40,081 bases of DNA from Microcaldota archaeon (GTDB taxonomy: Archaea; Micrarchaeota; Micrarchaeia; Anstonellales; SKW190), in NCBI GenBank assembly GCA_026414265.1, contig JAOAJI010000010.1:1-40081 (forward strand), read 5' to 3'. The translations under genes were made by a program, and so were the position numbers. Below, one piece after another: positions 1-39,675 of this stretch (its first letter is position 1; every line of letters starts with the position of its first letter). The notes beneath the pieces were generated by a model. The model searched no databases and was not told where the DNA came from. It was given only the letters and a program-made list of their open reading frames with translations.

Positions 1-3000
1 ATTAGAGCCAAAATAGAAATAAAAGACAAGTGCGATAACGTAGGTTTTTCTGAACTAGTTTTTAATACTACTAATCTTACATGTGTGAATGATGCGTATT
101 CAACCAATGGCTGGAAGTGGAATTCTACTGTTGCAAATTTATGGTCAAATTTAAGTATAAATATAACTGATCAAGACGACATTTATTCTTATGTTTTTGG
201 ATTAGATAATGGTACAGGTACTTATACTTATGAATCTCCTGTTTACTTGTCACCTAATACAAAGCATCTGAATTTTTCTAAGGCTGTTAAATTAAACAAC
301 ATTGTTGGGAAATCTATAAAGTTTGTAATTATTGTTAATGATTCATGTAATCTGTCTAAATTATTTTCAGGAAACTTTGTCACAACTTCTTCTTGTTCTG
401 ATGTGACTGACTTTACTTCGTGGGTATTTAATAGCACTTATGCAGGTAAAGATACGTTATTCAATATAACGATGATTGATCAAGATAATCTTACTGGATA
501 TGAATTCTTTTTTGATAACGGTTCTAACAGTTTCATAAGTCTTGGTTACGTGCCATTATCCAATCTATCTTCTTATACAGTTACTGTTGTCAGAAACATT
601 AACTCGACAATTAATGCTAGAATAAGGGCTTACGTAACTGCTAACGATTCATGCGGTAATCTTGTCAATAGTTCAATTCTTGAATTTAATACAACTCAAC
701 AATGTGAAAACAATATGACCTTCAGTAATTGGTCAGTAAACACTACATACGCTGATACAGATGCTAATTTTTCGATATCAGTAAATGATTCTGATGGTAT
801 TAAATCATACATATTTTGGTTCGATAACGGTTTTGGGAGTTATACTGCTGATCCAGAAGTTAATTTATCATCAACACCTATTTCATTCAATTTCAGTATA
901 ATAAAACATTTAAACTCGAATGAAGGCTCTACTATAAGAGCGATATTAACAGTAAAAGATAACTGTTCCAATATATACAATTCCACAGAATTAATCTTTA
1001 ATACTACTTACAAGTGTCCTCTCATAATTACAAATTCTAAAAATTTAGTAACTAGTGTAATCTGTCCTACGACAGCAGTGATTATCAATAATAGTAATGT
1101 GGCGCTTAACTGTCTGAACAATTCGATTGAGTTTGGTTATGCAGGCCAAGGATACGGCATTCAAGCAGTAAACAAGTCAAATATTACTATAAGAAATTGT
1201 ATTGTATTAACAAGAAACAATGCTTCTTCTGTAGATGATATAGGGATAGATGTTTCTAATTCTTCTAACATTACCATTAATTCTACCAGAATTAACCTGA
1301 ATGGTACAATAATTAAAGGTATATCTGCTAACAATGTCTCTAATTTTAGATTACATAGTTCAAATTTGTCTGCAAATGTTACAACACCTGCTTTCGAGTT
1401 ATTAAATTCTTCTAACATAGTAATCTCTTCGAACTATTTAGACGGTGCAATTAATTTATCCAACGTTTCATTAATAAACATTTCAAACAACACAATTTTT
1501 AGTGTTTTTAGCACTGCATGGAGTGTCAGACTTGAATATTTTTTTATACTGTCAACTTTTTTGTTCGATAATAATAAGGTTTCTAGAAGGGGATTTGTTA
1601 TTTCGCCATGTTACAATTGTACCTTTTTGTTTAATGAAATTAATGAGACTTCTAGGCCTTTAAGAATAGATAATACTACTAATTTAAAGGTTGTTGGAAA
1701 CAAATTTCATGGCAAAAATCAGGGACTGTTATTATATAATGCAACAGGTTCGTTAGTAAACATTAGCGATAACTATGGACTGGCAATAAGTGGAGTACAT
1801 CCTGCAATATCAATAAATGATGCAAATAATCTTTACTTAGTAAATAACACAGGTAATTCACAATGTACTATTGCAGGAGTATTGTTATCTAATGTTAAGA
1901 ATTCAACTGTTGTTAGGCTGATTGGGATATCTCCAGAATCCGATACATGTGTCTATGAGGGCTATCCATATGAAACAGATTATGCAATCATATTATATAA
2001 TATTTATAATCTTACTTTAAACGATTCAATTAGCTATGGTGGTTTAAAAATAGACAGTTTTTCACCAGAGCAAAACAGTTCTTTCTTAGTTGCTCATAAC
2101 TTTACAAGTACTAACGTGTCAGGTAACAAGAAAGCGCTATTCATAAAAAGCCTTTATAATTCTTCATTCAATAATTTGACTCTTACAAATAATTTATCTC
2201 AAACGTTATTTATTTACACTGCTTCTAACATAACAATTTCAAATTCTACTATCATAAACTACGATGTTTACGAGGGTGATCCTCTAAGTCCGACTTACAT
2301 GAGAGCGCCTAGTAGAAATATAGTAATGCAGAACGTTTCAAACATTACTTTTAGAAACATTAGATTGAACAGGACATTTAATGGGTATGTTAGTCCCTCT
2401 GGTTGTAACAGTTTCTTCTTAACATGTCCTTATTTCATATCTTTTGAAAAAGTTGGTTTATCTAATATTACTCCTAATAGAATAATTTTTGATCAAGTTG
2501 AATTCAATCACTCTATCAACCAAATTCTTTTCACTGGTAATAATCTACATACTTCAGGTGACCACTATATTATAAACTCAACTACTTTTGTAAATAATTC
2601 ATTGCGATTTGATACGCAAAATAGAACAGATAACATAACAGCTCAGTGGTATATCAGAGTTAACGTAACTAATGAGTCTAACAATCCAGTTAATGGAGCA
2701 ACTGTTTCTTTGAAAAACAATCTGGGAATTACTGTATCTCTTGGAACAACAGACTCTACTGGCTTAACGCAGTGGTATCTCATTAATGATACCACATACA
2801 CTAATGAAGACATATTCCCAAACACTGTTATTAGATACAATCCTCAAAATTTAACAGTCTCAGCTCCAGGTTATTCAACTAACGTTTCCACTGTGATAAT
2901 TAATACTACCGGGACAATAAACGTAATTTTAAAGCGCCCAATCTCTTGTCCTTTCTCAGCCGTATTTACTAATCTGTCTCATAATTCAACTTATGCAGGT

Positions 3001-5361: not shown

Positions 5362-5371
5362 AGTGATTTGA

Positions 5372-6454
5372 ATGGGATTTGCAATTATTTTAGGATTTCT
5401 TGCTATAATCTTAATATTAGTATCAATGGTTGGAGTTTACTATGTTGGAGTAGATTTCATCAAGGCAAAAGAGCTAGAGTCACAAAGAGAGAAGGTGTTG
5501 ATTGACGCATATTATATCCAGCACAACAGGATTAATATCACCAACATAACTGTTTTTCCCACTTTTTTATGTAGAAATTATACGATTCAAGTTAAGGCAT
5601 TGAACAGAGGTAGTGAAGTTATAGATAAATCAAAGCTCTTAATTTTTGAGAGGAATATGATAATTAACCACAATTTAAGTTCAGGTTGGAAGCCTTATGA
5701 AACAATAACTTTTAACATCACAGGTATAAATTCTTACGTTGGAGAACAAAGGTTAGTTAGAATAGTGACAGATTACGGTGGCATTGCAGTTAAGCACTAT
5801 AATTGTACAGGTAATTGTTCGTTCAACACAACTTTCAGTAACTGGCATTATAATTCAACAGGAGCAGGCACTAATATAAATTTCTCTATAAACGTATCTG
5901 ATAGTGACTATATCAAATCAATAATATTTGCTTTTGACAATGGTGTAGGTGAATATACAAACGATACTTACGTTGTATTTGAGAACAACCCTGCTCTTTA
6001 CGGTACAGGAATAGTCAATTATACTTTTTCAAAAGTAAAGCAAATCAATTCTACAGTAGGTTCATTTATAAGATTCAGGGTTTATGTTAATGATTCTTGT
6101 GGCAATCAAACAATTAAAGATGGTAATCTTACGACTTCTTATTATTGTGTACACTCAACTAACATTCCTACTTTTGATTATTCTGGTACCAACAGTAATA
6201 CATACGTAACATTGAATACAACAGTAACAGATAATGATTATATTTCAGGATTCCAGTTTTATTTGGACAACGGTACAGGCACATTTATAGAATATCCTTA
6301 CGAGCCGTTAAATCCGATGCAGTTAAATTACAACTATCAGAGAGTGATATTGACCAATCCAAATCAAGGTGTTCAGATAAGGTATTATTTAAAAGTTAAT
6401 GATTCATGCGGCAATATTGCAACAGGCAACATAAACGGATTTATCACAACTTGA
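5372..6454 (+). CDS. ArlF/FlaF-like membrane protein fused to two surface modules
   Basis: 360 residues. Residues 1-26 are a single hydrophobic helix (MGFAIILGFLAIILILVSM) followed by a charged heptad-like stretch (KAKELESQREKV). Then comes a small beta-sandwich with INITNITV, VKALNRGSEVID and RIVTDYGG. This order resembles the archaellum stator protein ArlF/FlaF, whose beta domain faces the S-layer. From Cys at 5816 there are two modules of the kind found in the giant protein just upstream (5816-6145 and 6146-6454). The ATG follows an AAGTGAT ribosome binding site and lies 10 bases after the giant gene's stop, so the two are probably one operon. Inference: a membrane-tethered partner that holds or docks the giant protein at the cell surface. 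No other archaellum genes are visible. The ArlF assignment rests on pattern recognition only. Confidence 0.65.
   Translation: MGFAIILGFLAIILILVSMVGVYYVGVDFIKAKELESQREKVLIDAYYIQHNRINITNITVFPTFLCRNYTIQVKALNRGSEVIDKSKLLIFERNMIINHNLSSGWKPYETITFNITGINSYVGEQRLVRIVTDYGGIAVKHYNCTGNCSFNTTFSNWHYNSTGAGTNINFSINVSDSDYIKSIIFAFDNGVGEYTNDTYVVFENNPALYGTGIVNYTFSKVKQINSTVGSFIRFRVYVNDSCGNQTIKDGNLTTSYYCVHSTNIPTFDYSGTNSNTYVTLNTTVTDNDYISGFQFYLDNGTGTFIEYPYEPLNPMQLNYNYQRVILTNPNQGVQIRYYLKVNDSCGNIATGNINGFITT
5816..6454 (+). repeat. Two Cys-paired modules in the ArlF-like protein
   Basis: Two modules beginning at Cys codons 5816 and 6146, with NDSCGN and DNG-G motifs, of the same type as the upstream giant protein. They end at the stop codon. 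Confidence 0.75.
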
Positions 6455-6469
6455 ATTCTTCGTATCACC

Positions 6470-6476
6470 TTTTTTT
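6470..6476 (+). terminator. T-run between convergent genes
   Basis: A run of seven T just after the stop of the ArlF-like gene, in the 46-base convergent gap before alaS. Archaeal termination commonly uses T-runs. No hairpin is evident. Confidence 0.3.
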
Positions 6477-6500
6477 ATGATCTGCCGAAAAGTATTAATT

Positions 6501-9131
6501 CTATATATGTTCGAAATAGGCTATTTTTCCTTTACCTTTTATTAGCGTAATATCTAGTTTTTTAGTTTTCAGTAATTGATGCAAAATAGATTCTGCTTTA
6601 TTATCTTTGTCTACTGCAAAATAGATTTTATTATTCGTTAGTATACACGTTACATCTTTTTTAATTAGTTTACCAGCTATTTTTTGCAAGAGTTCCTTAT
6701 CAAAATCTCGAAATTCAAAAACTGATTTATTATTTTCTTGTTCAATTTTTTGAGTCACGTAATCTAACAGTAATTCAATTTGCTTGTCTTTTTGTTTCCA
6801 TTCATTAAAGAACCTGTTGCATGTAATTGGCAATCTTTCATCTTCTACACTGAATACAGTCGCGCTTTCTTTTAGCAAAGCTTCTTGTTTTTGTGCAAAT
6901 TCCAAAGCAGCAATTCCGCAGGCAAAAACTATTCTTTCAAGGTTGTCTTGAACTGTTTCTCTTCTGATAATTTTAAAGAATCCAATCTCTCCTGTTGAAT
7001 TTACATGAGTTCCTCCACACGCTTCTACGTCAATTTCATCGATACTTTCAATTTTTACTATTCTTAGTTCTTTTCCTGGGATATAACCACCTTGATATAA
7101 TGTCATCCCGTATTTTTCTTCTGCTTCGTTTCTTTTCATTACTGTTTTGGTTACTTTAAGGTTTTGAACTATCCAGGTATTTACTAAATATTCAATTTTT
7201 TTGAGTTCTTCTTGTGTAATCTTTTTATAATGTGTAAGATCAAGATGTGCTTTATTTTCGTCTTTGTGTGCACCGTATTGCCACACGTGTTGACCTAAGA
7301 CCCTAACTGCTGCAGCATGCAATAGATGAGCTCCAGTGTGGTTTTTCATTATTCGTAGTCTTCTTTCTTTGTTTATTTTAACCAAAACATGTTGATTAAT
7401 TTTTAGTGTTCTTGCTTGTTCTTTGTTTTTAGCTACGTGATAGATAATCCCGTTTTCTTTTTTGGTGTCGATGATTTCAACGTCATTTATAAACCCAGTA
7501 TCTCCTACTTGTCCTCCGCCTTCAGGATAGAATGCACTTTTGTCAAGAATTATTAATTCGTTTTCAATTCCTATAACTGTTGCAGTGTGTTCGTACACAT
7601 CATCATAGCACATTTGAACAGTTTTAGGATAATCTTTTTGAAGTGTTCTTTTTGAAACTTCTTTGACTTCTTCTTTTTCCTTAATGATGCTATAGAAATT
7701 TTGAGGCACTTTTATATCTGAGATATTTAGTTTATTTGCCTCTTCTTGGACTATCTCAGCAGGAATCCCATAACTTTGATAAAGAACTTTGAGTTCTTCT
7801 ATTCCTATATTTTTTTTAGTTTTTAATATTTGAACCAATTTGTTTCTTCCTACTTCCTTGGTTTTATTAAATTTCTTTTTTTCTTCATAGATCAGGTCTG
7901 CAACAGTTTCATCTAAAAAAGTTAACGATGGAAACAGAGTTTTCAAGGTTTTGACGTGCTCTTTCATCAACTTATAGTAATCAATCTCTACTTGAAATTC
8001 GTGTTCGAAGCCAAAACAGCGTCTCAATAGCATTCTTAAGTTATATCCTCCTCCTGAATTAGAAGGTAACATCCCATCAGATACAGTAAACAACAACGTT
8101 TGCGTATGATCTGCTATTGCATAGCAGGCAAACAAAGGATCGAGCATTCTCCTTAAAACTTCTTCTTCAACGTTTAATTTTTTTGCAATACTTTTCTTAT
8201 CTAGTTGACTATTGTCTTCTTCTGCGTTAAACTTGCCAGTTAGTTTAGCGTATTCGAGAAATAGTTTTTCTTCAACGTTTAATTGAAATACGTTTTTGAG
8301 ATAATTTACGGCATATGGCATGACAAGTTCATAGCTGGTTGCTATGGGGTTAGTAATCCAGCATAGCCTGGCTAATCCTGCTCCCATGTCTATGACTTTG
8401 AGTTTTAGTGGCTCGTATGAATTATTGTCATTTAGTATTTTGAATTCTTGAAAGACGCAGTTGCCTAATTCCAAACCCCTGCAGAAATATTCTAAGCTAG
8501 GTCCAAAGTTACCGCCTCCGAGCCAGAAATCCTCTTTGAAAGTGATTTCCTCTAAAGGTAAGCCTAAAGCTTTAAGATAATTAATATCGTGATAAATTGC
8601 TTCTTCTTTCCAATAGAACAGACCAGTTTTTTCATTATTAAAAGCATGTTGGCCTATCATAACGAAATTGGTGTAGTGCCTACCTGTAACCCCTACATTA
8701 CTAATGTCTCCGAACCTTATGCTTGTTTGAGGTACTATCAATGGATTAGCAACTGGCTCTAATTCACCATTAACAACGTATGGCTGAAAATTACATATAC
8801 TTGCTATGTTGAAGTACAGATCATCTCGCCATCTCGCAACTGTTGGAAACGGCTTGATACTTGTATGTCCGTTATCTACGAAGTATTTTTCGATTAGTTT
8901 CCAAGTTTCAACGTAATCGAGTTTCTTTTTTGCTGGAGAATTACCAATGAATGTATATCCTGTGCACGAAGCGTCTTCGCAATATTCTCTTTCTTCAACC
9001 AGAGTCCAAAAAGGTCTTTTACATGATTTGCATTTTTTTCTTTTGAATCCGTGGTCAATTAACACATTTAATTTATAGTTTTTTTCCCAATCTCTTTGAA
9101 ACATTTCATACAAATATTCTTTTGTTAGCAT
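6501..9131 (-). CDS. alaS: Alanyl-tRNA synthetase, archaeal type
   Basis: 876 residues, the usual length for archaeal AlaRS. It charges tRNA-Ala and clears mischarged Ser and Gly. An N-terminal zinc-like site (C34, C37, C51, C56) is typical of archaeal forms. The class II catalytic core follows (DDLYFNIASICNFQP, then GGNFGPS and DMGAGLARLCW). The editing domain has the metal motif HTGAHLLH near residue 600 and CGGTH near residue 704. The start ATG at 9131 follows GTGAG at a good distance. The tRNA-Val(CAC) gene lies 29 bases upstream on the same strand, so both may share a transcript. Identification is secure. Confidence 0.97.
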   Translation of the reverse strand: MLTKEYLYEMFQRDWEKNYKLNVLIDHGFKRKKCKSCKRPFWTLVEEREYCEDASCTGYTFIGNSPAKKKLDYVETWKLIEKYFVDNGHTSIKPFPTVARWRDDLYFNIASICNFQPYVVNGELEPVANPLIVPQTSIRFGDISNVGVTGRHYTNFVMIGQHAFNNEKTGLFYWKEEAIYHDINYLKALGLPLEEITFKEDFWLGGGNFGPSLEYFCRGLELGNCVFQEFKILNDNNSYEPLKLKVIDMGAGLARLCWITNPIATSYELVMPYAVNYLKNVFQLNVEEKLFLEYAKLTGKFNAEEDNSQLDKKSIAKKLNVEEEVLRRMLDPLFACYAIADHTQTLLFTVSDGMLPSNSGGGYNLRMLLRRCFGFEHEFQVEIDYYKLMKEHVKTLKTLFPSLTFLDETVADLIYEEKKKFNKTKEVGRNKLVQILKTKKNIGIEELKVLYQSYGIPAEIVQEEANKLNISDIKVPQNFYSIIKEKEEVKEVSKRTLQKDYPKTVQMCYDDVYEHTATVIGIENELIILDKSAFYPEGGGQVGDTGFINDVEIIDTKKENGIIYHVAKNKEQARTLKINQHVLVKINKERRLRIMKNHTGAHLLHAAAVRVLGQHVWQYGAHKDENKAHLDLTHYKKITQEELKKIEYLVNTWIVQNLKVTKTVMKRNEAEEKYGMTLYQGGYIPGKELRIVKIESIDEIDVEACGGTHVNSTGEIGFFKIIRRETVQDNLERIVFACGIAALEFAQKQEALLKESATVFSVEDERLPITCNRFFNEWKQKDKQIELLLDYVTQKIEQENNKSVFEFRDFDKELLQKIAGKLIKKDVTCILTNNKIYFAVDKDNKAESILHQLLKTKKLDITLIKGKGKIAYFEHI

Positions 9132-9160
9132 AATCTCACTTTTAGCATTTTATGATTGTA

Positions 9161-21428: not shown

Positions 21429-22769
21429 TTAGTTCATAAAGTCGTTGAGAGACGAATATTTAGACTCATAAATTTTTTTTTCTATTACTACAGATGAAGT
21501 ACTATTACGAACTTTTTTTTCAGTGTCATTATTTCTAAGATCTTCATCATCTGATGGAATTATTTTAACTATTCCATAAACACCGTCGTATCCAGGTATG
21601 AGCTTAACAGTTCCTATTCTAGCAGAAATTATGTAGTCTGCTAACCTACTATTAAATCTATTTCTTAGCTCATTATAATCTACATTAATCAAGATATTTA
21701 TTTCGTTATTGTAAAAGTTAATCAAATCATTGTAGAGACTAGTTACTTTTTTCGAATTTTCATTTGTATTCAAATACTGTGCCAGTATTTGTTTTAAAGG
21801 GACTATCTTTCTAAAAGGTATGTGGTTTTTTCTTATGAATCCCAAAGGCCTAGTTTCTTCAGCCAGTTCTTCTACTCTATGTAATACTCCTATGGTCAGT
21901 TCTTTCCTGCATACAGGGCAAATATTTTTGAGTTTTTTTGATTCATCTGGTGATAATGAAACATTACAGTTTCTGTGGCCATCGTAGTGGTATTTACCTT
22001 CTTCAGGATAGAATTCAATTGTTTCTAACAACCTATTAGCTCCTTCTTGGTCTACATTTTCTAGGGCACATATAACGTTTTCATAAGTAAGTTCTTTAAC
22101 CTCTAATATGTTTGCTTCTCTTCCTATCTTTTCAGGCGAATGTGAATCGCTATTAGATATCAGATTGATGTTATCTAATTCTTTTATTCTCCAGTTCATT
22201 GCAGGATCACTAGATAATCCTGTTTCGACACATTTTATATATTTCATCATGTCTTTATAGCAGTCTTTGATAGAATCATATCCGCTGTTAGAACCATAAA
22301 CAGAAAACCACGGTGTCCATATGTGTGCAGGAAAAACGAAAGCTTTATGTGAAACGCTTTTTGCTATTTCTACTGTTTCATCTGCTCCCATAAAAAGTGT
22401 AGGTCTTCCGTCTGCGCTTAAATTGTTTTTTTTCCCCACTATGTCATTAAATTGCTCTAGCTCTTCTAAGGTTTTGAATGCTATACATTGGTGTATTTTT
22501 TTGCATTCGTTATTATCGAAGTAAACATTACTTACTTCTCCGCATAACAAGTATCTCATACCATTGACATTGTATAAACCTAAATGTTCGTCGTCTTTGC
22601 TGAACGCATTTTTTAACTCTTCAACATATTTTGGATGAGTTATATCTCCAGTTCCCATGAGTTGAATGCCTTTGGTTTTTGCGAATTCAGATAGTTCTAA
22701 AGGGTTCATCTTCGAACTAGTTGCCATGGAATACTTGGAATGGACATGTAGATCTGCAATTATTCTCAT
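21429..22769 (-). CDS. EndoQ-like PHP-domain DNA repair endonuclease
   Basis: 446 residues from the ATG at 22769. PHP phosphoesterase domain: IADLHVHSKYS at the N-terminus, GTGDITHP, AHIWTPWFSVYGS, ETGLSSDPAMNWR and NSDSHSPEKIGREAN. A C-terminal zinc-binding part has HRNCNVSLSPDE and ICPVCRKELTIGVLHRVEELA. This is the pattern of archaeal endonuclease Q, which nicks DNA 5' of deaminated bases (uracil, hypoxanthine) and abasic sites. A lysine/serine-rich tail follows the core. It stands alone, downstream of the surface-protein gene on the same strand. Confidence 0.88.
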   Translation of the reverse strand: MRIIADLHVHSKYSMATSSKMNPLELSEFAKTKGIQLMGTGDITHPKYVEELKNAFSKDDEHLGLYNVNGMRYLLCGEVSNVYFDNNECKKIHQCIAFKTLEELEQFNDIVGKKNNLSADGRPTLFMGADETVEIAKSVSHKAFVFPAHIWTPWFSVYGSNSGYDSIKDCYKDMMKYIKCVETGLSSDPAMNWRIKELDNINLISNSDSHSPEKIGREANILEVKELTYENVICALENVDQEGANRLLETIEFYPEEGKYHYDGHRNCNVSLSPDESKKLKNICPVCRKELTIGVLHRVEELAEETRPLGFIRKNHIPFRKIVPLKQILAQYLNTNENSKKVTSLYNDLINFYNNEINILINVDYNELRNRFNSRLADYIISARIGTVKLIPGYDGVYGIVKIIPSDDEDLRNNDTEKKVRNSTSSVVIEKKIYESKYSSLNDFMN

Positions 22770-22788
22770 CAAACTAACCTAATTAGAA

Positions 22789-22802
22789 ATCAAATATTTG
22801 AT
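22789..22802. promoter_or_regulatory. Perfect 14-bp palindrome upstream of the EndoQ-like gene
   Basis: ATCAAATATTTGAT, centred about 26 bases before the EndoQ ATG, where box A would lie. It could be the promoter itself or an operator over it. Confidence 0.35.
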
Positions 22803-22820
22803 TATTAATTTGATTATTAG
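22797..22820. repeat. 12-base tandem repeat at the end of the surface-protein gene
   Basis: TTTGATTATTAA followed directly by TTTGATTATTAG. The second copy contains the stop codon of the minus-strand surface-protein gene, and the first overlaps the palindrome at 22789. Confidence 0.7.
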
Positions 22821-24103
22821 TTTGTCTGTTCTTTAGCTTTACTTTTAGTATAGATAATATATATCGCAACAGCGAGTATTATTAAGCCTATGACGATGAA
22901 AATAATGTTTTGCTGGCTTTGTACAGGAACAGAGCCACTGCCTTTTTGAGATGATTGGTTCGTAGTAGTGTTGCTTGTTTCATTTGAATCTTGATTTTCA
23001 AAGTCAATTAGTTTAATGTTTCCACTTGCTGATGCCTGATTATCTTCTTTATCTTTAGCTATAATCCTATAACTGAAAAACTTAGATCCTTCAGGTATAC
23101 TTGCTATGCCAAGATAAATATCGTTTTCGGAGTGCAAGTACATGTTTATGCTGTCTTCTTTTTCTTCAGTTTCGTAAAACAATGTTAGTTCAGAGAGTCC
23201 TGAGGCATATTTTCCTTGGTCTTTAACTTTTGCAAACACTTTGACTTTAGATGAGTTCTTGTCATATTCAACCTTTGTATCTGAGATATTTGGCGCTTCT
23301 CTGTCAACAGGGATTATAATGTCTACCTCCGGTTGGAAAGTTATATGGACTTTTTTCTCATAATCTCCAACAATAACCTTAACCGCTGGATTGTTGTCAT
23401 CACCAAATACAAATTCTTTACCAGATTCAGGAACTATGATTTGTTTTCCATCGTATTCTATGATTCCTGCTATTTTATTTGCTTGAGAATCAACAATGTA
23501 TAGAGTTGCTTTCCTTTCGAATACTCTAAAGCTGTATCTTGCGTTTTGAACTACTTCGATTTTTTCTTCTTTCTTAAGATTCTTATAAAGGATAGTTATG
23601 GTTTGAGTACCTCTAGGAAGATAAAGCCTTGCTATACCATATGAATCAGTTTGGTATCTAATTCCGTTAAATTCAACAATAGCATTAGCAGGATTTCCTT
23701 TGTCGTCAATCAGATAAACAGATACCAAATACACTGGTAATTTTATAGTCTGAATGGAAATAGTCTTGTTAACGTCAAAGGTTTCTTTTTTTTGGGTATT
23801 CCCATATACCACAGTAACTGTATATTTAGTATCAACTTTATTTGGGTTGAATTCATTATTGTAGAGCGTGTAATTTGCTCTACCAAGGTTGTTTGTCACT
23901 AGTGCTTTTGACGTTATGTATCCGTCTATGGAATTTAACTGGTAAGTAAAATATACATACGCGTTTTCTATAGGAATGCTTTCCTCACTTAAAACTTGAA
24001 CTTCTACATTCTTTCTAAATTCTGAAAAATTAGTTCCAACAAAGAACATGTAAACTAAGAGAGACAGAGACAAAGAACAAAGCATACTTAAATTTTTATT
24101 CAT
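22817..24103 (-). CDS. Membrane-anchored surface protein with Ig-like domains
   Basis: 428 residues from the ATG at 24103 (GTGGT upstream). There is an N-terminal signal segment (about 8-25). Several beta-sandwich repeats follow: VEVQVLSEESIPIENAYVYF, then VSVYLIDDKGNPANAIVEFNG with DSYGIARLYLPRG, the carboxypeptidase-regulatory-like kind. A third unit is ATLYIVDSQANKIAGIIEY. Near residues 275-375 there is an Ig/cadherin-like unit (DREAPNISDTKVEY, YRIIAKDKEDNQASASG). A Ser/Thr/Asn/Gln-rich stalk with sequons leads to a C-terminal transmembrane helix (IIFIVIGLIILAVAIYIIYT) and a short basic tail. The ligand is unknown. A C/D box RNA lies just upstream on the same strand. Confidence 0.75.
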   Translation of the reverse strand: MNKNLSMLCSLSLSLLVYMFFVGTNFSEFRKNVEVQVLSEESIPIENAYVYFTYQLNSIDGYITSKALVTNNLGRANYTLYNNEFNPNKVDTKYTVTVVYGNTQKKETFDVNKTISIQTIKLPVYLVSVYLIDDKGNPANAIVEFNGIRYQTDSYGIARLYLPRGTQTITILYKNLKKEEKIEVVQNARYSFRVFERKATLYIVDSQANKIAGIIEYDGKQIIVPESGKEFVFGDDNNPAVKVIVGDYEKKVHITFQPEVDIIIPVDREAPNISDTKVEYDKNSSKVKVFAKVKDQGKYASGLSELTLFYETEEKEDSINMYLHSENDIYLGIASIPEGSKFFSYRIIAKDKEDNQASASGNIKLIDFENQDSNETSNTTTNQSSQKGSGSVPVQSQQNIIFIVIGLIILAVAIYIIYTKSKAKEQTN

Positions 24104-24119
24104 AAGAACCACTTTCAAA

Positions 24120-30988: not shown

Positions 30989-32017
30989 ATGCCATCAAAT
31001 GAGTTTTCAAAGAGACTTTATCAGGAAGTTAATGATCACATTGTAAAGGCTTTCAGAGACTTTCAAAGTTTGACTGAGCAAGACTTAAAAGTAAGTGATA
31101 CTGCTGGAAGGCGTGCTCTGGTAATAGGAAACAAAGATGAGAAAACAAAGACCATATATATACCATTGACCCAAAGTATGTATCACGAGATTACACAAAG
31201 ACTTTCTCAGCTCCCTGATTTCGATCATCCATATGTATATCCAGCTCCAGGTTCAGGGTATATCCCTTCTGATGAACCATCTTTGAGAGATAGGTTAACG
31301 AGTATGATAATCACAGACAAAGCAGGGAATCGTTTCTTGCGATTAGATGTTACTGATGTTGGTGCCATAGGTCAAAGTTTTTTTGTTAGGTTTGACGAAG
31401 ATTCGAAAAAGCTTCTTGCCATACTTGGCTTTGCAAGGTTTCAGAAGTCACAATACTATTACATTAAAGCTGATGAAGAGCACTTCACTTCTCTAAGAAG
31501 AAGAGTAGCAGGGAAATTAGTTGAATTAAAAAGGAGGCCAGAATATTTCAATATCGACAATAACCTCTTTGGTTCAGCTACTGCCCAAGGTTTGAGACCT
31601 CCAACACCAGAATCCCTAGTGGCGGGTGATCTCACTAAATTTCATCATGACGCCAAGAATGCTTTGGATAAGCTTGGCTTGCAGCATCTCAGGAGAGACA
31701 GCATTGCCAGAATACTTCTTGCAGAAATGGCAGCAAGAGCCAGATATTTTAGTAATCCTAATGTACCAAATAGGCAATATGCTTTAGAAGTAATAAAAAA
31801 TGATTATCTTGAACTTCAGAGAATATTCAGCCAATATAGTGAATATACTATGGGAGTAAGACAAAGTTTTGCTTCTGATCGTCGATACTTGGCTATCAAA
31901 AATAAGTACTTAGATCAAAACGGGAACCCTATTAATAGGCCTGAAGGTATGAGTCAGGGGTTGATCGCTCAAAGGATTCAGGAATCACCAAATCAGAGAG
32001 TTCAGAGATTAGCTTAG
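30989..32017 (+). CDS. Unknown protein, tandem paralog 2 (RRPEY-NNLFG family)
   Basis: 342 residues, clearly homologous to the preceding gene over its whole length. Shared features are GRRALVIGN plus IYIPLTQSMY, VTDVGAIGQSFFVRFDED, LLAILGF, LRRRVAGKLVELKRRPEYFNIDNNLFG, ILLAEMAARARYF, and YLDQNGNPINRPEGM. A stretch of 28 identical bases spans the EMAARARYF codons of both genes, which suggests recent duplication or gene conversion. It is soluble, with no motif of known function. The start has GGTGA four bases upstream. The stop codon overlaps the convergent sigma-factor stop (32014-32017). Confidence 0.8.
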   Translation: MPSNEFSKRLYQEVNDHIVKAFRDFQSLTEQDLKVSDTAGRRALVIGNKDEKTKTIYIPLTQSMYHEITQRLSQLPDFDHPYVYPAPGSGYIPSDEPSLRDRLTSMIITDKAGNRFLRLDVTDVGAIGQSFFVRFDEDSKKLLAILGFARFQKSQYYYIKADEEHFTSLRRRVAGKLVELKRRPEYFNIDNNLFGSATAQGLRPPTPESLVAGDLTKFHHDAKNALDKLGLQHLRRDSIARILLAEMAARARYFSNPNVPNRQYALEVIKNDYLELQRIFSQYSEYTMGVRQSFASDRRYLAIKNKYLDQNGNPINRPEGMSQGLIAQRIQESPNQRVQRLA

Positions 32018-32871
32018 AGGATATCGTGAAGATCATTAGCCCTGGCAATATTTCTTAATTGATTTAGTCCTTGTTTAAGAATTTGTTCTACTCTTTGTCT
32101 TGATATATTTAATAAAGAAGCGATTTCTTGATATGTATACTTTTTTTCTTCTTCGTTCAGGCCGAAATACAATCTTATTATCAATGCTTGTTTGGGATTT
32201 TCTTTTTCAAGAATCTCAATCAATTTTATAACATACTCAACAGTTAAATTTTTCATAACTATCCTTTCAACGTTTTGGCTTTCATCAGGAAGTAAGTTGT
32301 CTACTATTCGCATATCATCATCTGTTGAATTCGAAATTACTGAATCAAATATGGAATAAGCCTTTTGAATTCTTTCTGCCCTTAAAAGTGCTTCCACTTC
32401 TCTTTCTGACAAGCCACTTTCTTTTACAAGGTTTTCAGTCGATTCATCTAAATTGTTCATTTTTAATTTATTCTCTGCTGCACAAAACTTTTCACGCGAA
32501 TTCTGTGCAAGACCTATATTAAGTTTTTTTTCGTCAATTTCTCTTTTGAATGCTTTTTTCATGGCTTCAACAAAATAGGTAGAGAAACTTAATCCTTTTG
32601 TTACATCAAAATTTTTTACACAACGTTCTAACACTAAATAGGCAACAGAGTATAGGTCCTCATAACTAAGAATGCTCCCTCTTAAACTCTGTTGTGATAT
32701 AACTGTTGATATTAATTTGTAATTCAAGTTGTATAGCTCTTCCATCAATTGTTTTCTTTCATTTTCATCAACTAATACAGTGTTGCTCTTTAATCTAACA
32801 AGTAATTCATAATTAGCCTGTCTATAGCTTTTTTTTGAATTGTTAGAAAGTTTTTTTTGTGTGTTGGGCAT
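32014..32871 (-). CDS. Sigma-70 family RNA polymerase sigma factor
   Basis: 285 residues with all sigma domains except 1.1. Region 2 (about 45-115) contains SYEDLYSVAYLVLERCVKNFD, the polymerase-binding part, and KGLSFSTYFVEAMKKAFKREI, the -10 recognition/melting part. The Trp pair of housekeeping sigmas is absent there, as in FliA/SigB-like alternative sigmas. Region 3 (about 135-195) ends in DNLLPDESQNVE. Region 4 (about 210-275) has LIIRLYFGLNEEEKKYTYQEIASLL then ISRQRVEQILKQGLNQLR, the -35-binding helix-turn-helix. Archaea normally use TBP/TFB, so this is exceptional. Complete sigma factors have been reported in single-cell genomes of DPANN-type archaea. The start ATG lies 16-29 bases from a palindromic TATA-like site, so the mRNA is probably leaderless. 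The gene converges on paralog 2 and diverges from pyrG. Confidence 0.93.
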   Translation of the reverse strand: MPNTQKKLSNNSKKSYRQANYELLVRLKSNTVLVDENERKQLMEELYNLNYKLISTVISQQSLRGSILSYEDLYSVAYLVLERCVKNFDVTKGLSFSTYFVEAMKKAFKREIDEKKLNIGLAQNSREKFCAAENKLKMNNLDESTENLVKESGLSEREVEALLRAERIQKAYSIFDSVISNSTDDDMRIVDNLLPDESQNVERIVMKNLTVEYVIKLIEILEKENPKQALIIRLYFGLNEEEKKYTYQEIASLLNISRQRVEQILKQGLNQLRNIARANDLHDIL

Positions 32872-32886
32872 AAGTGATAATTTATG

Positions 32887-32900
32887 TATAAACGTTTATA
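32887..32900. promoter_or_regulatory. Perfect palindrome over the sigma-gene promoter
   Basis: TATAAACGTTTATA, 16-29 bases upstream of the sigma-factor ATG. It contains TTTATA on both strands, so it may be box A and an operator at once. Confidence 0.5.
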
Positions 32901-32914
32901 ATGTTTGCTATGTA

Positions 32915-32928
32915 ATGATTATAATCAT
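32915..32928. promoter_or_regulatory. Perfect palindrome over the pyrG promoter
   Basis: ATGATTATAATCAT, 20-33 bases upstream of the pyrG ATG, at the position expected for box A of a leaderless transcript. Its centre is 28 bases from that of the palindrome at 32887. Confidence 0.5.
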
Positions 32929-32947: not shown

Positions 32948-34528
32948 ATGCCAAGATACATTGTAATAGTAGGCTCTATAATGTCTGGTTTAGGTAAAGG
33001 CGTTGTAACTGCTTCAATCTCGAAATTAATAAGCTCATTAGGATACAAAGTTTTACCGATTAAATTTGACGGCTATCTAAACGTAGACTGCGGTACTATG
33101 AACCCTTTTAGACACGGAGAGGTGTTTGTTCTTGAAGATGGTACAGAGTGTGACATGGATTTTGGAACTTATGAAAGATATTTAAATATTTCATTGAAAG
33201 GGGATTGCTCTATAACAGGAGGTAAAATCTTCCAAAAAGTGATTACAAAAGAAAGAAAAGGCGAATACCTAGGAAACGACGTACAATTCGTTCCTCATGT
33301 TACTAGGGAAATCCAAGAATGGATCAAGAATCTCGCAGAATCAGAAAAAGCAGATGTAGTAGTCATTGAAGTTGGTGGAACTGTAGGAGACATAGAAAAT
33401 GGTTACTTCTTAGAAGCTATGAGACAACTCTCGCTTAAAGAAAAAACTGTTTTTGTTCAACTTACTTTTGTTCCTGAAATTAACGGCGAACAAAAAACTA
33501 AACCAACACAGCATGCCAATAGACTTATAAATTCCCTTGGAATAAATCCCTCTATAATATTATGTAGGTCCTCAAAGCCATTAGAAAGGGACGCAAGACA
33601 AAAAATATCTTTGTTTTGCAACGTTGATGACGAAGACATATTCGACGATTATGACTTACAAACAATCTATGAACTCCCTATAGTACTACAAAAACAGAGT
33701 TTCATTGAAAGGATAGCTCAAAAACTTGACTTGAGGAAAACAGATGCAAATCTTGATAACTGGAAAAAATTGGTTGAAAGAATCAAGAATCCTGTTAAAA
33801 CTGTTAACATCGCAATGGTCGGGAAGTACACTAAGATCAAAGACGCTTATGTCAGCATTTTTGAAGCTTTTAACCATGTTTTGGCACACACTGGAATAAA
33901 GACTAACCTCAAAATGATTGAGAGTACTGACATCGAAGAAGGTAAAATCGATGTAAATACTTTAAAAAACTTTGAAGGTATTTTAGTACCTGGTGGCTTC
34001 GGTAAAAGAGGCATCGAAGGTAAAATCAAAGCCATTCAGTTTGCCAGAGAGAACAAAATTCCTTATCTTGGTTTGTGCCTGGGCCTGCAATTAATGGTCG
34101 TGGAATATGCAAGAAACGTGTGTAACCTCGAAGACGCTAACAGCACTGAATTTGACAAAGATACTAAACATCCTGTTATCTGTTTATTACCTGAGCAAAG
34201 AGACATCATTTACAAAGGCGGTACGATGCGATTAGGTAATTATGAATGTCTGATCAAGAAGGATACGATTGCATATTCTGCTTACCAGTCAGAAAAAATC
34301 GTTGAAAGGCACAGGCACAGATACGAGGTCAATCCTGAGTACGTGAAACTTCTTGAAGAGAAAGGATTAGTAATTTCCGGAACATCATTCAACAACAAAA
34401 TCGTTGAAATAGTCGAATGGAAAAATCAGTTCGGAATAGCAACACAAGCCCATCCAGAGCTTTCTTCAAAGCTCGAAAAACCTAATCCTTTATTTATGAT
34501 TTTTGTCAAAGAAGCTGCGAAAAAGTAA
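32948..34528 (+). CDS. pyrG: CTP synthase
   Basis: 526 residues from the ATG at 32948 (MPRYIVIVGSIMSGLGKG); an earlier start at 32840 would run back across the promoter and the sigma gene's start and is rejected. It makes CTP from UTP, ATP and glutamine. The amidoligase domain has GLGKGVVTASISKL, GTMNPFRHGEVFVLEDG, EVGGTVGDIENGYFLEA and the KTKPTQH substrate loop. The class I glutamine amidotransferase domain has VPGGFGKRG, the nucleophile region LGLCLGLQLM, and AHPE near the end. It is divergent from the sigma-factor gene. Confidence 0.97.
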   Translation: MPRYIVIVGSIMSGLGKGVVTASISKLISSLGYKVLPIKFDGYLNVDCGTMNPFRHGEVFVLEDGTECDMDFGTYERYLNISLKGDCSITGGKIFQKVITKERKGEYLGNDVQFVPHVTREIQEWIKNLAESEKADVVVIEVGGTVGDIENGYFLEAMRQLSLKEKTVFVQLTFVPEINGEQKTKPTQHANRLINSLGINPSIILCRSSKPLERDARQKISLFCNVDDEDIFDDYDLQTIYELPIVLQKQSFIERIAQKLDLRKTDANLDNWKKLVERIKNPVKTVNIAMVGKYTKIKDAYVSIFEAFNHVLAHTGIKTNLKMIESTDIEEGKIDVNTLKNFEGILVPGGFGKRGIEGKIKAIQFARENKIPYLGLCLGLQLMVVEYARNVCNLEDANSTEFDKDTKHPVICLLPEQRDIIYKGGTMRLGNYECLIKKDTIAYSAYQSEKIVERHRHRYEVNPEYVKLLEEKGLVISGTSFNNKIVEIVEWKNQFGIATQAHPELSSKLEKPNPLFMIFVKEAAKK

Positions 34529-34570: not shown

Positions 34571-36772
34571 ATGGTTGAAGCACAAGCGCCTCCTATTTCT
34601 TCTTCAGGTAACAGAAGAACTCAAGTACCTGATAGCCACCAAAATGAATTATCTTTAGACAGTGTTATTTCATTGATCGAAAAAATTAAAGGTAGTCTTG
34701 GGCGACCAGAGAATCTAAGTGGAATTAAGAAGAATGCTTGGCAAGTACTAAACATGTTGAGCAACATTCTCAATAATAAAAATAATAAAGATACTATTAA
34801 TGGACTAGGTAACAACAAGCAGCCGTTCTTAAATGTTATGGTTCACACCGTAGCGAGAGTAGTGGCAGTACTTGAACTTTCTGGAGTTCAAATGAATTTA
34901 GATTCTATTTCAGTGCCTAATAATTTTAAAAATGCTGTAACAAGGAATAGAAGCTTACTTTCTCCAGGGCTTAATCAAGGAAGTGAAGATAAGGCAGGCA
35001 ACAATAATTTTGATGGTTTTCTAGAATTATTTAGAATTGAGAATAGATTAAAGCAGCTCGAAAACACGCTAGATTATGCAAGAAATAACCCTAAATCAGC
35101 GAGAAAGGTGATTATGGATTATGTCTATTTTTCGTCAGTAGTTCCACGAATAAGTGCATCAGTTAGGGTTGGAGCAACCCCTAGCAACCAACAACCTCAA
35201 CCTGGAGGTATTTCAGATGGAGCGCAAACGGATAGCTCTCGTCGTCCAGCAACCGTTACACGTGAATCACAAGTGGTGTTAAACGGCGGTATTATCAAAG
35301 TAAATGATAATGATGACATAACAAAAATTGCTCAACTCATTTCTACATCAAACGTGTCTTTTGTCGGTTATCATAGAACAAATAATGGAGAAATGTTGAT
35401 AATACAACAGAATAATAGAAACATAGGGATAGAATTTAAGTCATTAGGCCCTTCGGTGGTTGATCTAATTTACAAACTTCTTGAGACAGTAGAACAAATT
35501 TTGAGGTCATCCAACGATAAAAACAATCCAAACCAACAGATAAGTGGTGCCTTTACTTCTGATTTAATGCTAACATTATCTCTTAATGCTCATCATCTGA
35601 TAAGGAACACATTAGACTTTATTGAAAAATTAGGAAATAGTTGTATAAAAGATTATTCAAGGTCTAATATAAAGCAAAGAGTTGATACACTGAGGAATAC
35701 ATTACAATCGTTATTGAATCAATCAACAACCCCAGTACGAAACCAGCGAGATAGTGATAGGTCACAAGTACCTACATTACTCACTCAGAGAGTGAGTGAA
35801 GTTCTAAATCAAAACCAAGAGCTCAGAATTTCGTTTACATTAAAAAAAGATAATCATCGTCATGTGATTACTCTCATCGCCAGGAAAAGTCAAAATGGGA
35901 GTTACGAATTAAGTATTAGTTTGCCTCCTGGATTGGAAATTAATCAAAACAGTTTAAAACAAAAATTAGGAGAGTTACAAAATATGATAAATAATCCTCC
36001 AGATAGAGTACAAGGACTAACAGTACAAAAACTAGCAGAAAATTTCCACAAAATTTTATCAGATTTAGCTTCACAAGAAATAAATACTTATTTACCTGAT
36101 CTTACAAGAATGGATGCTAATGATTTACGCAACAGTAATACACCGCAGTTTTTCGTGAATTTTGAAATTAATCCTCAAAGCTCAAGAGATCGTTCTTCTA
36201 GTCGACCATCTTCTTCTGGCTTTTCAGTTGAATCAGGATATGCTGTTCAGGTTGTAAGTATAGCAGACCTAACATTTAGACAGAATCAATCAAACAATCA
36301 ACAGGTAATTATACCTTTCAAATCACTTTTGGATAAACCTAGTGGTGAGGCTAAGATAACTATTTCTTTGGAATTTCCCATAAATGATAACAATGTAATT
36401 CCTATAGATCTAACTATCACTAAAGATCAACTAGGTAAGTTGACAGTTTCTATAAGTTGTTCTAAAAGACGTTTATCATATGAGGAAATAAATCAAATCC
36501 GTGATAGTCTATCAAGAATAACTGATCAAGAAGGTAACTTCTTATTTAAAATAGAAGCTTATCAGTTGATATTAAATACTGAGTCAGTTAAAATTCAAAA
36601 TCTTACTAATCAACAAATTCATCAAAGATTTACATCTTATAACGATTTCCTTAATCCCTCAAATATAAAATACGAAGAAACAACACATACAGCCTCGTGG
36701 AGAGTAATGGAGCAAAACAATCCTCCTAATCTGATCCCAAATCAACAAGTAACAAAGAGCCAGAATAGTTAG
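34571..36772 (+). CDS. Large Asn/Gln/Ser-rich protein of unknown function (array gene 1)
   Basis: 733 residues with no signal peptide or transmembrane helix. A polar disordered N-terminus containing RRTQVP leads into a helical domain (SLDSVISLIEKIKG, then NAWQVLNMLSNIL), a plan shared with the next two genes. Folded alpha/beta segments alternate with low-complexity linkers (NNKNNKD, SRDRSSSRPSSSG). Two segments look like an internal duplication: about 415-500 (LRISFTLKKDNHRHVITL, GSYELSISLPPGL) and 590-680 (KITISLEFPINDNNVIP, GKLTVSISCSKRRL). The C-terminus is KSQNS. The ATG follows GTGATCTTTT, 42 bases after pyrG. Family not recognised. Confidence 0.78.
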   Translation: MVEAQAPPISSSGNRRTQVPDSHQNELSLDSVISLIEKIKGSLGRPENLSGIKKNAWQVLNMLSNILNNKNNKDTINGLGNNKQPFLNVMVHTVARVVAVLELSGVQMNLDSISVPNNFKNAVTRNRSLLSPGLNQGSEDKAGNNNFDGFLELFRIENRLKQLENTLDYARNNPKSARKVIMDYVYFSSVVPRISASVRVGATPSNQQPQPGGISDGAQTDSSRRPATVTRESQVVLNGGIIKVNDNDDITKIAQLISTSNVSFVGYHRTNNGEMLIIQQNNRNIGIEFKSLGPSVVDLIYKLLETVEQILRSSNDKNNPNQQISGAFTSDLMLTLSLNAHHLIRNTLDFIEKLGNSCIKDYSRSNIKQRVDTLRNTLQSLLNQSTTPVRNQRDSDRSQVPTLLTQRVSEVLNQNQELRISFTLKKDNHRHVITLIARKSQNGSYELSISLPPGLEINQNSLKQKLGELQNMINNPPDRVQGLTVQKLAENFHKILSDLASQEINTYLPDLTRMDANDLRNSNTPQFFVNFEINPQSSRDRSSSRPSSSGFSVESGYAVQVVSIADLTFRQNQSNNQQVIIPFKSLLDKPSGEAKITISLEFPINDNNVIPIDLTITKDQLGKLTVSISCSKRRLSYEEINQIRDSLSRITDQEGNFLFKIEAYQLILNTESVKIQNLTNQQIHQRFTSYNDFLNPSNIKYEETTHTASWRVMEQNNPPNLIPNQQVTKSQNS

Positions 36773-36825
36773 GATGTAATGTAATTAGGCCTCACAAATT
36801 TAATCGTTAATGTGAAAATGAATAT

Positions 36826-39675
36826 ATGCCTGAAAGATTTTCAGACACTCACACAACCTCAAAAAGACGAAGAGAGTTATCTACTGTTCCTAGACCAGTT
36901 GAGCAGTCAAGCCAGGCATTTCAACAAATATTATCACTAATTAATGAATTACTTAAAAGCTCCAGTGAACTTGTAAAGCAAAGAGCTACGCATGCACTGG
37001 CTATATTGGAGTACATGAAAAACGAATTAAGATTGAACAACGAGGTTCTTGAAAACATAGCTAAGTTTATAAAAGCAGTTTCTGGGAAATACAGCATAAG
37101 AAGAGACGACTTTGACAGCATCTATTTAATGGCTTCAGCAGTAGTTTACTTGTTCAACGATGTAAGGGTGCTAAAATTTAGAAACGTTAGAGATGATAGT
37201 TTAAATTCCCAAATCGCAGATTTTTTTACCGGATTATTTAGTGGCAGAAACTTCAACAGAGCTGTCGTTTATGCTAGGAAAATAGGATTATCTATATCTG
37301 CTTACGAGAGTATGATAACATCAGAAGTCGATAGAATTTCTTCAGAAATTGTGTCAATAACACAAAACAGAGACAGATTAAGGAGCCTATCGTCTCAGCT
37401 GATTTCAAGTATTAGAGGAGAATCTGATGTTACTTTTGGACAAACTATTTTATTTAATCTTGTGAGTGCTGTTGATCGTTCTTTGATAACTAATTCAAAC
37501 AACATAGACAATAGACAACTGTCTTTTTTTAGGAGAGATTACGGTGATTCAAACGCAATAGTTCAAGTTTCACTAGCGTCTTTTCAAGTTAATTCGATTT
37601 CATTAACTAACACCAGGACTTTTAGGGCTGTAAAGGAATTGGATAAACAAGTAGAAAAGATTTATCAAGAATTGAGCAAATTAGCCAAGCCTATACAGGA
37701 CTTGATTTATCAAATTTTATCTGAATTTTACAAAAAGATGTTCAATTCAGAGTTCAAAGCTGATTCAGAGCAATCAAAAAAATCTTTATTACGTGAAATT
37801 TTGTTTGTGTCTGTATTCGATCAGAGATACAGAGGTTTCTCTAGGTTCCTCGATTATATCAACTCTGAATTAAGCTCTGACAGTGTATCTTTCGTGCCTG
37901 AACTGAACAACTCTCCGAGGAATTCCTATTGGAGATTTAATGTACATGAGTCAGAAGATGATAGAATTACTAGATTAGTTTTTGGTCATCGATCGTTTGT
38001 TTCAAGCGGTATAAATCAACAATTAGGTATATTAGGCTCTGCAATAGTCGCTTTAGGAAAACGGATTCAGGATGAATTAGCTCAAAAGCTTCAGGAATTA
38101 TCAGCTAAGAGACAAGAAGTAATTAGAAAGATTAACGAAGATACGACAATGTCTGATGAAACAAAGAAAACTGCTTTGACAAATTTGGAGCAGATAACAG
38201 AGCTATCATATACTGTAATACGTTCTAGAATCTCTTCGATGATAGATAGGGCGTTTAATTTAAGCATAGATGATCAAGGTAATTTACAGGTAAACTCTGA
38301 TCTTAGTCGGTTCATGCAAAGAGTTTTCGATACTTCTGATTTGCCATTAAGTTTACTATTTTCTAAGAAACCTGATGAAATTTTGGCTATTCTTAGTAAT
38401 GGCCAAAGGTTCAGAAACTTCATTGGAAACTTTTCTGTAAATGGTTCAATTACGTACTCAGGAGCATTACCATCAGCTTTAGCACAGCAAGTAGATCCAA
38501 GTAATCATCGTGTAGTCTATGAACAAAAAGTTTCTGAAGTTAAGCCTGATGTTTCCTTAAATGACAGAGAAATAATTTTGAATCAAGTACCTGTCTCATC
38601 TCAAAAAATTGGCCCAAGGAACGAGCCTTACTATTGGTTTGAGTACGGTAGAAGTCTAGATCCTGATAAAATAGGAAATATATTTGGGTATTGTTCTTAT
38701 GTAGAAGGAAAACCTTTACCAGGAATATTAATCAGAATCAATAACGACGATTATTTAATTTCAATTCAAAAAAACCAAAATACAGACAATAACGACTATC
38801 CATATGAATTATTAATATATAAAAATGGTGAATTGATTAGAGATATAACTTATAAAATTCCAAAGTCTTTGATTTACAATAAAGTGACAAATTCGTATGA
38901 GATAGACATGCCAACTCTAACAAAAATTTTGAGTATGGTATTAGGTCATGGTAATTTCCAATTAATGGCTCAAGCTGCAAAGGAATACCTTTCGTTTAGA
39001 ATTAAGAAAGATGAGTTGACCAAAGGCGTGCCTTTGTTCATAGCTGAAGATTCAACAGTTTATTGTTTTTTGCGCTTAGATGAATCAACAAAAGAAATGG
39101 TTTTATATGACAGAAATTCTCCAAGCAGAGTGATCAAGTTGAGAGCTGATTCGTCCAGTATAAAGGATTCTTCAGGTAATGATTTGATTGATATAACAAT
39201 TCATAGAAGCGAACTAGAGAGAAATAGAGTCAGTGAAATCGTTAATATATCGTCCAAAGAAGTCAGTCCTGGTTTATCATCCATTCATATTCGAGGTTAT
39301 TCATCTCAAGCACAGATCAACTTAGAATTGGTTGATGTATCTCAGCATAGATTGAATTTGGAAATTTACAGAAAAGCAGACAATAAATACTACGTAAAAT
39401 TAAACAACCAAGAAATAGAAATAACAGAAGCAGTAAAACTATCTCAAGACCAATCTAGTATAGAGCTAGATTTACAAAAAATTATTGAAATAATTAAGAA
39501 AAATATCAATGAGACAATGTTTAATTTAGAGCAATTCGCGTCTGTAGTCATATTACATCAAGACACTAGAGTTGAAAAAAACTATTCAGAAGTACAAAAA
39601 ACAACAAAAGAAGTTCAAATTCAACCTATTTTTATCACTAAGAACATGCTTAATCCTTCAGGTCAAAATAGTTAG
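36826..39675 (+). CDS. Large soluble protein of unknown function (array gene 2)
   Basis: 949 residues with no signal peptide or membrane helix. A polar N-terminal tail with RRRELSTVP leads into the same helical plan (QILSLINELLK, then QRATHALAILEYMKN and IAKFIKAV). A long helical middle follows, with a likely coiled coil (about 405-465, LGKRIQDELAQKLQELSAKR). The C-terminal third is made of beta-rich units such as GILIRINNDDYLISIQKN and INLELVDVSQHRLNLEIYRK, each followed by a helix. The protein ends GQNS, echoing SQNS in the gene before. The ATG lies 53 bases after the previous stop, with GTGA about ten bases upstream. Function unknown. Confidence 0.78.
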   Translation: MPERFSDTHTTSKRRRELSTVPRPVEQSSQAFQQILSLINELLKSSSELVKQRATHALAILEYMKNELRLNNEVLENIAKFIKAVSGKYSIRRDDFDSIYLMASAVVYLFNDVRVLKFRNVRDDSLNSQIADFFTGLFSGRNFNRAVVYARKIGLSISAYESMITSEVDRISSEIVSITQNRDRLRSLSSQLISSIRGESDVTFGQTILFNLVSAVDRSLITNSNNIDNRQLSFFRRDYGDSNAIVQVSLASFQVNSISLTNTRTFRAVKELDKQVEKIYQELSKLAKPIQDLIYQILSEFYKKMFNSEFKADSEQSKKSLLREILFVSVFDQRYRGFSRFLDYINSELSSDSVSFVPELNNSPRNSYWRFNVHESEDDRITRLVFGHRSFVSSGINQQLGILGSAIVALGKRIQDELAQKLQELSAKRQEVIRKINEDTTMSDETKKTALTNLEQITELSYTVIRSRISSMIDRAFNLSIDDQGNLQVNSDLSRFMQRVFDTSDLPLSLLFSKKPDEILAILSNGQRFRNFIGNFSVNGSITYSGALPSALAQQVDPSNHRVVYEQKVSEVKPDVSLNDREIILNQVPVSSQKIGPRNEPYYWFEYGRSLDPDKIGNIFGYCSYVEGKPLPGILIRINNDDYLISIQKNQNTDNNDYPYELLIYKNGELIRDITYKIPKSLIYNKVTNSYEIDMPTLTKILSMVLGHGNFQLMAQAAKEYLSFRIKKDELTKGVPLFIAEDSTVYCFLRLDESTKEMVLYDRNSPSRVIKLRADSSSIKDSSGNDLIDITIHRSELERNRVSEIVNISSKEVSPGLSSIHIRGYSSQAQINLELVDVSQHRLNLEIYRKADNKYYVKLNNQEIEITEAVKLSQDQSSIELDLQKIIEIIKKNINETMFNLEQFASVVILHQDTRVEKNYSEVQKTTKEVQIQPIFITKNMLNPSGQNS

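Follow-up and report, generated by a model that had tools for sequence, protein, structure and literature searches.

The locus analysed here raises the question of what a bacterial-type sigma factor does in an archaeal chromosome. The accepted view is that archaeal transcription begins by means of TBP and TFB alone. A chromosomal archaeal sigma gene makes directly testable whether sigma can direct archaeal RNA polymerase (RNAP), and that question bears on the divergence of the two initiation systems. The window, i.e. the whole stretch of DNA that was analysed (40,081 nucleotides), is an entire 40-kb contig (C11) of a Micrarchaeota draft genome (1.18 Mb, 117 contigs, 90.7% complete, 3.3% estimated contamination). 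The features discussed below are collected in Table 1.

Table 1 Features of the sigma locus in the window and of the sigma locus in the related genus g7.
Sequence	Positions	Strand	Feature	Basis
Window	32014..32871	-	Sigma-70 family protein, whole gene, 285 aa	Pfam, NCBIfam, PDB, PHROGs, fold search
Window	32644..32724	-	Region 2.1-2.2, residues 50-76; D72 at E. coli D403 position	Alignment with RpoD/FliA/RpoH
Window	32554..32586	-	Region 2.3-2.4, residues 96-106, FSTYFVEAMKK	Alignment
Window	32278..32322	-	Region 3.2 'finger', residues 184-198, DDDMRIVDNLLPDES	Alignment with SigA/RpoD
Window	32053..32106	-	Region 4.2 recognition helix, residues 256-273	Sigma70_r4 over cut-off; alignment
Window	32887..32900	.	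Perfect 14-bp palindrome TATAAACGTTTATA	Sequence; putative TATA box of sigma
Window	32915..32928	.	Perfect 14-bp palindrome ATGATTATAATCAT	Sequence; putative TATA box of CTP synthase
Window	32948..34528	+	CTP synthase, divergent from sigma	Pfam CTP_synth_N and GATase
Window	30989..32017	+	Convergent neighbour without assigned function, 342 aa	Stop overlaps sigma stop; no family match
G025, L056 (G025:C13)	1856-9149		Seven tandem sigma-like genes between DUF498 gene and aconitase X	
G034, L049 (G034:C22)	36-4000		One sigma gene between; two beyond DUF498 gene	
G061, L058 (G061:C21)	192-3753		One sigma gene between; 716-aa form beyond	
G006, L211 (G006:C21)	1730-4708		993-aa protein: sigma module and about eight region-4 repeats	
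G028, L212 (G028:C30)	4278-9088		594-aa and 1031-aa forms	

The sigma open reading frame begins with ATG. A profile search with its product gave significant Pfam matches to Sigma70_r4 (46.9 bits, E = 2e-12, residues 225-274, cut-off 24.1) and Sigma70_r2 (25.9 bits, E = 8.7e-6, residues 61-113, cut-off 24). Sigma70_r3 had no match at region 3, its weak match falling in region 4; region 3 is optional in the sigma-70 family, and ECF sigma factors are without it. The sequence-only reading had described regions 2, 3 and 4 as all recognisable, which holds for regions 2 and 4 by profile and for region 3.2 by alignment, but not for Sigma70_r3 in its own place. In NCBIfam, the sigma-70 superfamily model TIGR02937 scored 69.5 bits against a cut-off of 42.9, while the cut-offs of the RpoD model TIGR02393 (62 bits against 354), the FliA/WhiG model (54 against 189.6) and the SigB/F/G model (59 against 234) were not reached. 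The model for MzaA of the MZA defence system was likewise not reached (52.6 bits against 800); a defence role was rejected, as this is a generic sigma-domain match only. A cyanobacterial SigA in the PDB matched residues 40-279 (E = 4.9e-14), and PHROG 351, a sigma factor family, matched with E = 5.5e-29. In an AlphaFold model with a mean pLDDT of 66, computed from an alignment of seven rows, the helices follow the order of a sigma factor; the leading Foldseek hits of this model are sigma subunits from RNAP complexes (best E = 2.6e-7, probability 1.0). Global TM-scores were low (0.2-0.3), probably because the relative placement of the domains is not predicted in the model. Regions 2, 3.2 and 4 are secure, and region 3.0 is a putative assignment from alignment and predicted helices. 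The full-length alignment with SigA/RpoD, together with Pfam regions 2 and 4, bears out the earlier description of a complete bacterial-type sigma factor.

Individual residues were compared in an alignment with E. coli RpoD, FliA and RpoH, Nostoc SigA and a Priestia plasmid sigma factor, the meaning of the RpoD positions for core binding, melting and -10/-35 contacts being what we take to be established. D72, the conserved core-binding Asp, is invariant in this alignment and nearly invariant among 18 sigma proteins. Also kept are FSTY at residues 96-99 (F427-Y430 of E. coli RpoD) and two of the three -35 contacts, with R258 and Q263 at the R584 and Q589 positions and Q259 replacing E585. The Trp pair of region 2.3 is missing, as the sequence-only reading had noted: E. 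coli W433/W434 correspond to E102/A103. Further replacements (E. coli residue first) are Q437 to K106, T440 to K109, Q406 to S75, E407 to V76 and N409 to Y78; together with the Trp pair, most of the other core-contact residues are thereby lost.

The same genome encodes TBP, TFB, one archaeal Rpo1 N-part and Rpo2, and holds only one Sigma70_r2 match, so that sigma is a single-copy gene. In the archaeal Rpo1, the beta-prime positions R275, E295 and A302 are occupied by I, L and H, and R278 is kept; compared with the bacterial flap tip, the flap segment GKVSPPRFLEEINVFGVVEEKERESS is shortened. Adaptation of the polymerase was sought in the clamp and flap sequences, and none was seen: the clamp does not differ between sigma-bearing and sigma-free genomes of the phylum, and clamp and flap are plainly archaeal. 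Docking of sigma on this RNAP is therefore putative.

The 76-bp intergenic region between sigma and the CTP synthase gene contains both 14-bp palindromes (Table 1), and two perfect palindromes in this stretch have a chance probability of about 0.003. Within them, TTATAAAC occupies about -30 to -23 relative to the sigma ATG in the sigma direction, and ATTATAATC lies at a similar distance from the CTP synthase start in the direction of that gene. Both are probably TATA boxes of near-leaderless transcripts, and the sigma gene is thus probably transcribed by TBP/TFB. Operators were considered as an explanation of the palindromes and set aside, since TATA boxes account more simply for their spacing from the start codons. 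A survey of other window genes for a TATA-like pattern was suggestive only. Elsewhere in the genome (L156, G000:C50, 533-3014), the TFB gene is divergent from genes for a 171-aa protein and an ATPase resembling KaiC/FlaH by eye; TATAAACGTTTGTA, one mismatch from the sigma palindrome, lies between them.

We favour the view that the window protein plays a minor part as an alternative initiation factor and has an altered interface, and hold it with middling confidence, ahead of a non-initiating regulator, an element-borne gene and an artefact. The gene is chromosomal, single-copy and of bacterial type; it would not be a recent acquisition, and would itself be transcribed by the normal TBP/TFB machinery. 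Its product may serve as a minor promoter-specificity factor. Region 2 would then dock on Rpo1 at its clamp coiled coil, the region 3.2 finger would reach into the RNAP cleft in the manner of the TFB reader, and an upstream element would be recognised by region 4. RNAP would in this way be brought to a few promoters through a modified docking interface, not the bacterial one.

Several observations argue for alternative initiation: the complete architecture from region 2 to region 4; the retention of D72, FSTY, the finger and, among the three -35 contacts, R258 and Q263; the finger itself, which is hard to explain without entry into the RNAP cleft; the retention of beta-prime R278 in Rpo1; and the presence of TBP, TFB and an archaeal RNAP in the genome, with codon use in sigma equal to that of its neighbours. 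A maintained role is further suggested by the recurrence of sigma genes in 37 of the 301 genomes of the phylum, and by one orthologue pair that is 60% identical between two species. Against alternative initiation stand the changed beta-prime positions 275, 295 and 302, the shortened flap tip and a clamp that is the same with or without sigma; the replacement in sigma of Q406, E407, N409, W433, W434, Q437 and T440; the lack of an identified promoter set, anti-sigma factor or regulon; and the conversion of a related sigma clade into multi-HTH proteins. The sequence-only reading had taken the missing Trp pair to indicate an alternative sigma that melts only strong or special promoters. Such a melting specificity is conjectural, and the canonical archaeal clamp and flap and the multi-HTH relatives make a role other than initiation a serious rival.

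These relatives belong to genus g7, of the same order as the window genome, in which a Trp-less sigma clade sits at a DUF498 (Mth938-like) gene and aconitase X (Table 1). Two g7 species have proteins of about 1000 aa in which a single sigma module is combined with about eight region-4 repeats in tandem. At this locus, the flanking genes are mostly 65-87% identical between species and the sigma proteins 24-33%, the syntenic pair from G034 and G061 being about 31-33% identical; another sigma gene, outside the locus, is 60% identical between these two genomes. Judged from these comparisons, the locus looks like a site of rapid diversification of sigma-like DNA-binding proteins. We found no earlier report of it in the open-access literature.

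It is possible, rather than probable, that the window protein is a sigma-derived DNA-binding regulator that no longer initiates, with region 4 binding operators and region 2 at most blocking or recruiting RNAP. The unadapted archaeal clamp and flap, the loss of most core-contact and melting residues, the extra region-4 repeats in the related genus and the divergence of its syntenic sigma proteins between well-conserved flanks are all in keeping with such a regulator. The window protein itself fits it less well: it has retained the finger of region 3.2, its region 2 still scores over the Pfam threshold, it is without extra HTH repeats, and it is only weakly tied to the multi-HTH clade. A broader proposal, which we offer as speculative and rather unlikely, is that Micrarchaeota hold an old archaeal sigma branch with a new RNAP interface, forming a second system of initiation or interference beside TBP/TFB. 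In g7 this branch would have turned into a hypervariable locus of tandem sigma genes and giant poly-sigma-4 proteins, and the window gene would be a conservative single-copy member. The tabulation of residues kept and lost on sigma and RNAP, together with the syntenic, fast-evolving sigma locus, provides material for testing whether sigma can direct archaeal RNAP.

Sigma70_r2 matches in the phylum lie partly on long contigs. The sequence-only reading had held that complete sigma factors are known from only a few DPANN genomes; this understated their spread, given their number in this phylum and the sigma-70 genes published for many DPANN genomes in 2021 (PMC8204110). Among the sigma genes of the 301 genomes, no close relative of the window gene was present, the best being 31% identical over about 254 residues and from the same order. 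Several bacterial SigA proteins outscore every archaeal relative, and the relatives in phages and on bacterial plasmids share 24-28% identity. In one tree, the window protein grouped with the Trp-less sigma clade of Micrarchaeota family f7 (support 96/60); in a second, it fell between that clade and bacterial proteins, and a grouping with SigA was not rejected (p-AU 0.145). Its branch is long, and the tie to the Trp-less Micrarchaeota clade is weak. Elsewhere in the phylum, the genes L042 (G294:C4, 148-2157) and L038 (G100:C39, 1090-3057) encode long proteins in which the sigma part is accompanied by long additional regions. L004 (G053:C147, 70-1761), judged by eye, encodes a DEAD-type-helicase-like protein with a C-terminal stretch that resembles sigma region 4.

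The patchy distribution, with a close relative absent from the phylum, the presence of phage sigma factors among the matches and several large flanking proteins without any family match would suit a viral or mobile-element gene whose product redirects host RNAP and which lies in the chromosome by chance. We regard this as improbable: PHROGs gave no viral hallmark gene in ten window proteins, the unassigned neighbours of sigma included; no relative of sigma was detected in viral or genome contigs at the sensitivity used; and housekeeping genes of matching composition lie nearby.

The surroundings are archaeal, as had been claimed from the sequence: the contig carries archaeal-type genes for AlaRS, an RPA-like protein, dimethyladenosine transferase, DUF655, GluRS, Cdc6/Orc, FBPase and a DeoC/FBP-type aldolase. 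The CTP synthase, searched with a query beginning at 32954, two codons past its start at 32948, has its closest matches in two 'Candidatus Micrarchaeota' MAGs (57-58% identity), followed by an unclassified archaeon (53%); identity to bacteria over its length is at most 49%. The genome is placed in Micrarchaeota on this ground. Neither in G+C content nor in codon use does the sigma gene stand apart from its neighbours. The convergent 342-aa neighbour, which has no Pfam or PHROG family match and a poor predicted structure, shares a 4-bp stop codon overlap with sigma; the earlier suggestion that these stops tie the two genes together is sound as regards contiguity, but convergent genes do not imply an operon. 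Contamination of an archaeal contig with a bacterial sigma gene is very unlikely, in agreement with the sequence-only reading. An artefact in which a bacterial fragment was fused to an archaeal contig is scarcely credible, for all that the genome is a draft in 117 contigs with some estimated contamination, as sigma lies at 32 kb of the 40-kb contig with archaeal-type genes on both sides, the CTP synthase is nearest to Micrarchaeota, G+C and codon use are uniform, the bacterial and phage proteins searched never exceed about 28% identity, and other members of the phylum carry sigma genes on contigs of up to 268 kb. The window gene is thus confirmed as encoding a sigma-70 protein native to a Micrarchaeota chromosome.

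Other parts of the window hold further proteins of interest. At 85-6454, proteins of 1758 aa and 360 aa, whose only matches, to CarboxypepD_reg and bacterial Ig domains, are weak, are probably surface proteins. At 21429-24118 lie adjacent genes for 447-aa and 433-aa proteins without family match, and the 44-bp gap between them contains a perfect 16-bp palindrome, AATCAAATATTTGATT (22788-22803). Downstream of the CTP synthase gene (34571-39675), 733-aa and 949-aa proteins gave no significant Pfam, PHROG or PADLOC match.

Complete sigma factors were reportedly seen in archaeal single-cell genomes by Rinke et al., Nature, 2013. Castelle et al. 2021 (PMC8204110) described sigma-70 genes (fam00359) in DPANN genomes, most prevalent in Woesearchaeota. 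That study excluded mis-binning, saw no anti-sigma factors and did not settle the role. Sigma genes are therefore already reported in DPANN archaea, and the window gene is not categorically new. Like fam00359 (PMC8204110), it is a sigma-70 gene on a DPANN genome that also encodes TBP and TFB; in a comparison by description, it differs in coming from Micrarchaeota, whereas that family is mainly from Woesearchaeota. The best full-length alignment is with RpoD/SigA (group 1/2), regions 2-4 following in order and the finger and -35 helix being kept; identity is 25-28%, however, region 1.1 and the Trp pair are missing, and core and -10 contacts are altered. With group 3 (FliA, SigB/F/G, RpoH), the window protein shares size and loss of the Trp pair, which FliA also lacks, but it scores lower to FliA, SigB/F/G and RpoH than to SigA/RpoD. 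Archaeal TFB inserts a reader loop into the RNAP cleft. The window protein has neither the zinc ribbon nor the cyclin fold of TFB, and the genome has its own TFB, yet by analogy sigma may do a comparable job on the archaeal RNAP.
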